Below, piece by piece: positions 26,110 through 63,857 of a DNA stretch of 64,000 nt; positions within the stretch are counted from its first letter, which is position 1; each line of letters starts with the position of its first letter. Source of the stretch: Ruania halotolerans. GTDB lineage: Bacteria > Actinomycetota > Actinomycetes > Actinomycetales > Beutenbergiaceae. Under the pieces are notes generated by a model. It had not been told where the DNA came from. It searched no databases and saw only the letters and a program-made list of their open reading frames with translations. Location of the stretch: positions 2,491,380 through 2,555,379 of the forward strand of contig NZ_CP088017.1 of assembly GCF_021049285.1 (NCBI RefSeq), given 5' to 3'. The translations under genes were made by a program, and so were the position numbers.

Positions 26110-26637
26110 CTATCCGCCCTCGCGCCCACTCACCAGATGGGTGAGGACACTGCTGCGCGGTCCCAGGTCGGACCATGGCCCTTCGTGGGCGAGGACTGCC
26201 GCCATCGCGGTGGAGATTCCCGTGCGCACCCGGTGCAGTGCGGCGTCCTCAGAACCGGGCCCGGCGAGCAGGTGCGCGACGGCGGAGGTGACCGGTTCGT
26301 GCCCGACCACCAGCAGGTGCGTCACCGACTCGGGCACGGCTCGCAGCACATCGAGTAGCTCGGTCACGTCGGCACCGTAGAGCTCCTCGAGGTAGCGCAC
26401 CTCCGGTTCCGAGATCTCACCCATCCCGGCCGCAGCCAGCTGCCACGTTTGCCTCGTCCGCACCGCCGTCGAGCAGAGCACCAGATCCGGCACACCCATC
26501 GCCGCGACCAGTCGCTCCCCCGCGATGTGCGCATGGTGGCGCCCATCGATAGTCAGGGTCCGATCGACGTCGCGCAGCGCCCCGTGCTCAGCCTGAGCGT
26601 GCCGCAGCAGCACCAGGTGCTTGGACTCCGAGTTCAT
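26110..26637 (-). CDS. SixA-like histidine phosphatase
   Basis: A 175-residue branch-1 histidine phosphatase. The catalytic RHG-type motif is LLRHAQAEHG near the N-terminus, and the second histidine lies in LLVVGHEPVTS. Length and order fit the SixA branch, whose founding member removes phosphate from histidine phosphotransfer domains; the true substrate here is unknown. A TACGCT box ends 6 bases before the ATG. An unusual cluster of five GAATCCACTT-type repeats lies immediately further upstream (26661-26752), which could be regulatory. The gene is convergent with serB. Confidence 0.9.
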   Translation of the reverse strand: MNSESKHLVLLRHAQAEHGALRDVDRTLTIDGRHHAHIAGERLVAAMGVPDLVLCSTAVRTRQTWQLAAAGMGEISEPEVRYLEELYGADVTELLDVLRAVPESVTHLLVVGHEPVTSAVAHLLAGPGSEDAALHRVRTGISTAMAAVLAHEGPWSDLGPRSSVLTHLVSGREGG

Positions 26638-26643
26638 GCGCTC

Positions 26644-26649
26644 AGCGTA
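26644..26649 (-). promoter_or_regulatory. Candidate -10 box of the SixA-like gene (TACGCT)
   Basis: TACGCT ends 6 bases before the ATG at 26637. The first repeat of the adjacent cluster falls where the -35 would lie. Confidence 0.35.
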
Positions 26650-26660
26650 CGCGCGCGTTC

Positions 26661-26752
26661 AGATCCACTTGGCGCATACGAATCCACTTCGCGCGCTCGA
26701 ATCCACCTACTGCCCCACGGAAGTGGATTCCTCCCCCGAAAGTGGATTCGAG
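26661..26752. repeat. Five ATCCACTT/AAGTGGAT repeats at 19-20 bp spacing
   Basis: The 8-base core ATCCACYT occurs at 26663, 26682 and 26701 on the plus strand, then as its complement AAGTGGAT at 26721 and 26740. Starts are 19, 19, 20 and 19 bases apart. The outer context extends to CTCGAATCCAC (26696-26706) and GTGGATTCGAG (26742-26752), a perfect 11-base inverted repeat. The array lies in the 232-base gap between two minus-strand genes, just upstream of the SixA-like promoter. Apart from it I see only a weak 71-codon plus-strand frame (26764-26979). Confidence 0.8.
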
Positions 26753-26869
26753 TGAGCGGGAGGATGAGACGTGAAGAAGGAGATCCCCTCTACTCCGACG
26801 CCCTCGGCTCCCTCTATCCCTTGGCGTACGCACTGAAGTTCTTCAGTGACGCCGAGCTCGACCGGGACG

Positions 26870-27286
26870 TCAATCGTCCCGATCGCGCGGCTGTGAGGGG
26901 CTCGTCTGTGGGAAGAGTCGGCGGTCGCGCCGCACCTGCCTGGCCCACCGGGGATAGAAAGCGTCCGGGACGGGGATAAAGACCAATACCCAGTACAGGA
27001 GCGGGAAAGCCAGCACGCCAAGCGCCACGAGAGCCACGATCGTCGTGACGGCGAGCACGTCCGGTGTGAGCAGCTCGAGTCCGAAGGCATGCGGCGGCAG
27101 CGTCATGGCGCTGAGGGCGAGCAGCCCACATCCACAGGTGGGTGCCCCGAGGATCACCATCCGCTCGGTCCACATCGCGCCCAAGGGCGTGTACATCCAG
27201 CTCCGGGACCGGTACGACCGGCCCCGCCTGGCCCAGGCGGTGACGATGACGAAGGACAAGCCCAGCACAAGGATGACCAGGGACAT
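26870..27286 (-). CDS. Small membrane protein of unknown function
   Basis: A 138-residue protein from the ATG at 27286 (MSLVILVLGLSF), with a GAGAG ribosome site; an in-frame GTG at 27304 is an alternative. Three hydrophobic segments are visible: the N-terminal helix (LVILVLGLSFVIVTAWA), a middle one (MVILGAPTCGCGLLALSAM), and a long C-terminal one (VTTIVALVALGVLAFPLLYWVLVFI). The ends are basic (RRGRSYRSRSW; RRDRRLF), so the N-terminus is probably outside and the C-terminus in the cytoplasm. It follows fabI by 38 bases and may be co-transcribed, but no family is recognised. Confidence 0.65.
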   Translation of the reverse strand: MSLVILVLGLSFVIVTAWARRGRSYRSRSWMYTPLGAMWTERMVILGAPTCGCGLLALSAMTLPPHAFGLELLTPDVLAVTTIVALVALGVLAFPLLYWVLVFIPVPDAFYPRWARQVRRDRRLFPQTSPSQPRDRDD

Positions 27287-60442: not shown

Positions 60443-60451
60443 GAATGGGTG

Positions 60452-60570
60452 TCCGGCGGTGTCCTACTCTCCCACACCCTCGCGAGTGCAGTACCATCGG
60501 CGCTGAGGGGCTTAGCTTCCGGGTTCGGAATGGGACCGGGCGTTTCCCGCCTCGCTATGGCCGCCGTAAC
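60452..60570 (-). rRNA. rrf: 5S ribosomal RNA
   Basis: Read on the minus strand, it starts GTTACGGCGGCCATAGCG and ends CACCGCCGGAC, and the ends pair as helix I. The internal CCCATTCCGAACCCGGAAGC and GCCGATGGTACTGC are the universal 5S segments. The length is about 119 bases; ends may be off by one or two. Confidence 0.95.
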
Positions 60571-60734
60571 TCTATGGAGATATCACACCCCACGGGTGTG
60601 GGGTGTTGCGGTGTCACCACCCTTTGGTGGTCCCTGTTCCCCGGATTGGTGTCCGGGGTTCTGGGACCAGGGGGTGGTGTGCCGGTATCTCGGGAACCGC
60701 ACAGTGGACGCGCACATGAATTCTTTGATGTGTG
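60571..60734 (-). other. 23S-5S spacer with processing stem and three hairpins
   Basis: This 164-base spacer holds three perfect hairpins: 60585-60606 (9-base stem), 60616-60631 (6-base stem) and 60639-60658 (7-base stem). It also carries at 60694-60717 a 24-base block that is nearly complementary, in the transcript, to a block just before the 23S (63872-63895), forming the pre-23S processing stem. No tRNA is present. Confidence 0.8.

Positions 60735-63857
<3,123 letters not shown>

Follow-up and report, generated by a model that had tools for sequence, protein, structure and literature searches.

The window analysed here is a stretch of 64,000 nucleotides of the Ruania halotolerans genome. 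Within it, an array of short repeats separates a gene for a SixA-like histidine phosphatase (positions 26110–26637, minus strand; PF00300, E = 8.9e-7) from a truncated remnant of a neighbouring gene, delineated by eye (26771–26870, plus strand). The neighbour is intact in R. rhizosphaerae, where it also lies beside sixA (206 aa, L103 2143–2763); we take this intact counterpart to be GyrI-like. A scan of genome contigs with the SixA protein found no relative. The only Rfam matches at the gathering score in the window are 23S and 5S rRNA, the genes for which occupy positions 60451–63857 on the minus strand. The array matches no Rfam family, and an RNA of this kind was rejected.

The array contains five 8-base cores, at 26663, 26682, 26701, 26721 and 26740, precisely where the initial annotation had placed them, although the third of these, ATCCACCT, deviates from ATCCACTT by one mismatch. 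The motif ATCCAC is found at 26663, 26682 and 26701 and its inverse GTGGAT at 26723 and 26742, the last two cores (26721–26728 and 26740–26747) lying on the minus strand, and the core-to-core spacing is 19, 19, 20 and 19. The 11-base perfect inverted repeat that had been described along with the inversion was located as CTCGAATCCAC (26696) and GTGGATTCGAG (26742). The array is real and not a product of chance, as had been argued from its even spacing: the window contains four occurrences of ATCCACTT where 0.73 would be expected, with 0 of 100 shuffles reaching four, and the array holds five of the 52 occurrences of ATCCAC/GTGGAT in the window, with a maximum of two in any 92-bp stretch elsewhere. 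A genome-wide search, which the initial annotation had proposed, showed that the motif mainly groups into palindromes of constant length instead of being scattered as random single sites; exact GAATCCACTT is present at 17 sites (0 for the reversed control), most of which lie in clusters that share the layout of the array.

The larger part of the array (26679–26750) is a solo copy of what we call a type A palindrome, which consists of two forward units followed by two inverted ones and is able to fold into a hairpin. It is the one element in the window recognized by R1, a model made from an alignment of eight copies, and its score of 75.6 bits is that of a model built partly from this very copy. 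The forward cores, both on the plus strand, are GAATCCACTT (outer, 26680–26689) and GAATCCACCT (inner, 26699–26708), and the inverted cores on the minus strand are both GAATCCACTT (inner, 26721–26730; outer, 26740–26749). The extra forward unit (26661–26678, plus strand), which carries the ATCCACTT core at 26663, has counterparts in tandem extra units beside other copies of the element (L066, L070, L001). A consensus scan for intrinsic terminators (a GC-rich stem followed by a T run) found none in 26560–26900, and a scan for sigma-70 promoters, which is poorly suited to actinobacteria, found none at the array; both candidates were discarded.

A dispersed family of four-unit palindromes

Of the options in the initial annotation, that of a dispersed intergenic repeat proved right: the element is present at 34 places in the same genome, eight of type A (72–73 bp, like the window copy) and 26 of type B (62 bp, core TGAACCCACTT). 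Eight of the 34 places match R1 by construction and 26 are outside its training set. As R1 was seeded on motifs of this genome, other motif types are under-sampled. Among the matches listed, strong ones are confined to the genus Ruania, and four genomes outside the genus contain weak ones (E from 1.3e-4 to 0.0066). No target-site duplication was identified at the elements. At one locus (L001, 1391–1500), a type B element is directly preceded or followed by a tandem series of four GAGTCCACGCCGCGCACCTCCT-like units of 22 bp that continues into it, and tandem repeats are also present beside elements at L069 and L074.

Two near-perfect copies of the element fold at −46.6 and −50.4 kcal/mol (z of −9.7 and −8.9 relative to shuffles), and the window copy, which is more worn, has fold z values of −3.6 and −3.1. 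Hence, where the array had been considered a possible structured RNA, its ability to form a hairpin stands, and membership in an Rfam family does not. Across the type B copies (n = 26), 86.7% of cells are paired and 34 cells are compensatory, compared to 21.0 upon shuffling (0/500) and 3–8 upon sliding. Compensatory changes are also found in the spacers between the units; it is therefore the pairing of the whole arm that matters and not that of the cores alone. Quasi-palindrome correction during replication could likewise yield compensatory changes.

According to gene contexts called with a home-made GC3 gene caller, 14 of the 30 solo elements of this genome are located between convergent genes, seven between tandem genes, four between divergent genes and one inside a gene, with four being unclear. 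The solo elements are thus positioned like REPs and unlike operators.

The linked AbiEi-like and Vsr-like protein

In several genomes, elements occur in pairs with a separation of about 1.15 kb, and between them lies a chromosomal gene whose protein product has ~300 residues, which results in an element–gene–element layout of ~1.2 kb overall. This gene has 19 matches in 8/8 Ruania genomes and none in 16 other genomes of the family (E 1e-10), and the genome that contains the window has three. PF13338 (AbiEi_4 winged helix) was detected in 13 of 15 linked proteins at E 0.1, with a best value of 5.7e-8, and the AbiEi models of PADLOC match the linked protein weakly. In the structure model of a 302-residue relative from Ca. 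R. gallistercoris (pLDDT 86.2, pTM 0.83), residues 1–193 match the AbiEi antitoxin of S. agalactiae (6y8q; E 6.6e-5, Z 8.8, rmsd 6.8 over 168 residues), and residues 196–301 superpose on the Vsr endonuclease (1cw0) with an rmsd of 2.8 over 100 residues and a Z of 7.7, a value at which the similarity may reflect no more than a common arrangement. The linked protein is predicted to be a fusion of an AbiEi-like winged-helix DNA-binding module with a Vsr-like PD-(D/E)XK nuclease. The acidic and lysine residues E201, D233, E244, D246 and K250 of the nuclease part are invariant over 13 rows and are putative functional residues of the PD-(D/E)XK fold. The dN/dS of the gene is 0.14–0.22 (three pairs).

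The nine neighbours scanned at four loci include no AbiEii toxin, an AAA_21 match among them being an ABC transporter ATPase. A Y1/HUH transposase of the RAYT/IS200 kind (PF01797) is found in 0/8 Ruania genomes, with a control signal in 5 of 14 genomes, and PF01797 has no match in the linked proteins; an IS200/RAYT origin was rejected on the basis of the Ruania count. Broken nuclease genes were also observed, one of R. albidiflava that is interrupted by an internal TGA (L078, identical to L086) and another reduced to a C-terminal fragment in genome G001 (L079).

Motif matching in cis and in trans

Most nuclease genes have a palindrome of the forward–forward–inverted–inverted layout on both sides, such that repeats are also present upstream of the gene. 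The motifs of the two flanks agree with each other and differ from gene to gene (GAATCCACTT, GAATCCCCTT, GGACACACC, TGAACCCACTT, CTGAGTACC, ATCGGAGG, CGAGACACC and others). We compared the flanks at 27 of 33 distinct gene loci (the fragments L079, L081 and L083, as well as L096, L097 and L100, were left out; L084–L086 duplicate L072, L070 and L078), with cross pairs within four related groups excluded. The match between the 5′ and 3′ flanks averages 39.7 for own pairs versus 15.5 for cross pairs, and the own pair beats every cross pair in 19 of the 27 genes, which range from Ruania to Microbacterium and Gordonia. The rule also reaches Terrimesophilobacter, where 1 of 52 cross pairs equals the own pair. 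At the other eight loci the own flanks fail to beat all cross pairs, and four of the loci (L080, L087, L089, L090) have no clear match. At L076, a locus in genome G002, an inverted duplication of 158 bp brackets the nuclease gene and extends over the ends of the genes on either side, which inflates the score of this locus. Winged-helix identity tracks flank similarity (rho 0.44) more than the nuclease does (0.30), and the partial correlation given the nuclease is 0.39.

A similar correspondence connects the genes to solo elements elsewhere in the genome. The best fit is to a nuclease gene of the same genome for 41 of 77 solo elements, compared to a permutation mean of 10.4, and 4 of 20000 permutations reach this number; owing to related sequences, the 77 represent fewer than 77 independent events. 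In relatives, the solo elements were taken from the element matches listed and comprise part of the elements there; nine gene-flank elements were set aside, and two further ones of G001 (2657086, 2658300) were never in the set. The agreement is 28/30 in G000, 6/6 in G001, 3/5 in G004 and 3/8 in G003, and it is poor in G006 (1/17), G002 (0/7) and G007 (0/4). For ten of the 16 misses in G006, the fit is to orthologues in sister species (L068, L069). The misses in G002 and G007 are a real gap in the trans matching: for at least seven GGAATCC palindromes in G002 and four palindromes in G007, no matching gene was found in the same genome, and this GGAATCC/GGAATCCACTT-like population may be an orphan one or one that lost its gene. 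The 62-bp GGAATCCACTT-like palindromes that lack a matching gene are located at L165–L169, L040 and L051 in G002 and at L048 and L170 in G007. An exactly matching gene for the GAATCCCG subtype was likewise not found in G003 or G006.

Individual motif types behave in the same manner. GGACACA palindromes are present only in G000 (four) and G007 (three), which are the two of eight Ruania genomes with an intact gene of that type; G001, with its fragment of a GGACACA-type gene (L079), has none. In Microbacterium, GAGACAC palindromes are found in all three genomes that have a gene of this type (7, 5 and 7 forward matches; control 0) and in 0/3 genomes with other gene types.

Several sites are common to more than one species. 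A glycosyltransferase gene carries an in-frame palindrome after VGNGVDT in 7/7 genomes that have the ortholog. The motifs at this site are common to G003 and G006 and different in the others; in G004, the core has become GAACGGGG-like and the spacer CGTCATC, also found in G001, has been kept. The best-matching nuclease gene is in the same genome in five of the seven, the exceptions being G003 and G006. The linker beside this palindrome contains expanded, species-specific tandem repeats (PTDASPPAGATL, PDSPHPA; L113, L114, L118). At the sixA site, G006 has a palindrome of the GAATCCCG type, G003 a worn palindrome, and G001 and G004 none, though sixA is present in both; a gene of the same genome is the best match in one of three cases, that of G000. 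Flank comparison revealed further shared sites, one of which is of type B in G000 and of the GGAATCC type in G001. The element beside a gcvP-like gene in G000 corresponds to an empty site in G004 (109 bp versus 10 bp). The 3′ end of this gene, presumably gcvP (glycine dehydrogenase), is a shared spot: right beside the stop codon, Ruania has a solo element, and several Microbacterium have the nuclease gene itself (L026, L173, L090, L091, L093–L095). Since shared sites differ in motif and other sites are empty, some copies are old and have followed the local motif, and others represent gains or losses.

A palindrome population and its putative enzyme

Combining these findings, we propose, with a probability of roughly two in three, that the array belongs, as a solo copy, to a palindrome population that depends on a trans-acting AbiEi-Vsr-like protein, in a REPIN-like arrangement with an unrelated enzyme. 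This proposal draws on (i) the element family, (ii) its linkage to the gene, (iii) the matching of motifs in cis and in trans, (iv) the compensatory changes in the hairpin, and (v) the predicted fold, all of which are established at the level of sequence. The units look like AbiEi-type binding sites, which would be meant for a nuclease encoded elsewhere in the genome. Each protein would read the motif of its units, its gene being bracketed by two elements of the same motif, and solo elements of this motif would spread through the genome, mainly in intergenic gaps. According to the available excerpts of one study, both AbiEi and Rv2827c bind 23-bp repeats, of which Rv2827c occupies four simultaneously (PMC7319586). 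Four units with one winged helix each would be the natural reading of the element. Binding of the protein to the units is likely, and nicking or cleavage by the nuclease at the hairpin is plausible. Copies would then be spread, maintained and converted as they are repaired or copied from a different element, and the element population would follow the protein as its specificity drifts. The spread, the upkeep and the concerted change of motifs would follow if a second copy served as the template for mending breaks or nicks, and we infer that such spread or conversion is driven by the nuclease.

Alternatively, the protein could be a regulator or an organiser of the nucleoid, with sites that are kept by selection and track its specificity, and the nuclease domain could have another role. 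The repeat binding of AbiEi and Rv2827c, the species-shared sites and the G004 glycosyltransferase site, where the core changed next to a retained spacer as if tuned in place, fit such a regulon, but the abundance of solo elements between convergent genes (14/30, with only four between divergent genes and one in a coding frame), the invariant nuclease residues and the empty sites of some species make it unlikely. That the elements are bidirectional terminators or mRNA-end hairpins, repeated by chance, with the nuclease gene hitch-hiking, is very improbable: the folding of the two best copies and the proximity of elements to stop codons of convergent genes agree with such a role, but the array has no T-run terminator, and the gene-specific flank matching and the trans matching would be left unexplained. 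Even less probable is an operator of sixA or of its divergent neighbour. The outermost core is 26 bp upstream of the sixA start, and a palindrome occupies the same place in G006 and, degraded, in G003, but sixA is kept at the empty sites of G001 and G004 and the same element is found at 33 other places of the genome, mainly between convergent genes and once within a gene, so the cooperative operator of the initial annotation was rejected. Finally, the ~1.2 kb layout would suit an ordinary insertion sequence that has MITE-like ends and carries the nuclease gene as a passenger, but this reading is the most doubtful of all, as the gene copies within one genome each have their own motif and no near-identical duplicates, the frames between inspected element pairs encode no transposase, and no match exists on 72,556 plasmids or 50,697 phages, which also led us to reject plasmid or phage carriage.

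The behaviour of the proposed palindrome–protein system is REPIN-like. In the available excerpts of the literature, REPINs are REP doublets that form hairpins, undergo compensatory changes and have a RAYT gene beside each group (PMC3116915); the GI REPINs of P. fluorescens span 71 bp between conserved ends (PMC3116915, PMC3733652), and REPtrons and GTAG feet are described (PMC3733652, PMC8266576). To the extent of these excerpts, the two systems share dispersed intergenic palindromes able to form hairpins of similar length, compensatory changes, and a gene flanked by its own type of repeat (19/27 genes here). However, Ruania lacks a Y1/HUH transposase and its enzyme is AbiEi-Vsr-like, a GTAG foot is found in just 4 of 86 elements (3.1% at random positions), and an element has four units instead of two REPs. 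With AbiE type IV toxin–antitoxin systems, the linked protein shares the winged-helix and second-domain fold of AbiEi (6y8q) and, as far as the excerpts of PMC7319586 go, repeats of ~20 bp near the gene, four of them in Rv2827c. It differs in the lack of an AbiEii nucleotidyltransferase among the neighbours scanned at four loci, in repeats that are on both sides of the gene and also dispersed, and in the extra C-terminal nuclease. This C-terminal domain resembles the Vsr very-short-patch repair endonuclease (Z 7.7 to 1cw0) but is fused to an AbiEi-like module. Rickettsia palindromic elements have copies in frame within coding genes, as does one copy here, but the present elements are mostly between genes and have a linked gene.

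None of the components has a homologue in a known repeat-mobilising system, and defining features of REPIN-RAYT and AbiE that were tested are lacking; the system would therefore be new in kind. No paper tying such genes to dispersed palindromes was found in the open-licence PMC literature, an absence that is weak evidence. We tentatively suggest, at somewhat less than even odds, a selfish REPIN-like class in Actinomycetota, in which an AbiEi-Vsr fusion would copy or convert four-unit palindromes and, as its DNA-reading domain drifts, drag genus-old copies to the new motif. So read, and with the same reserve, it could be a bacterial counterpart of drive-like co-evolution of a protein and its sites.

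To our knowledge, the REPINs described so far go with RAYT tyrosine transposases. If true, a second enzyme that is unrelated to these but outwardly behaves alike would mean that resident palindrome populations were invented more than once in bacteria. It would also assign a function to the orphan 'AbiEi' genes found in actinobacteria, provide many natural protein–motif pairs for reading the DNA specificity of winged helices, and make testable how dozens of dispersed sites change their motif together.
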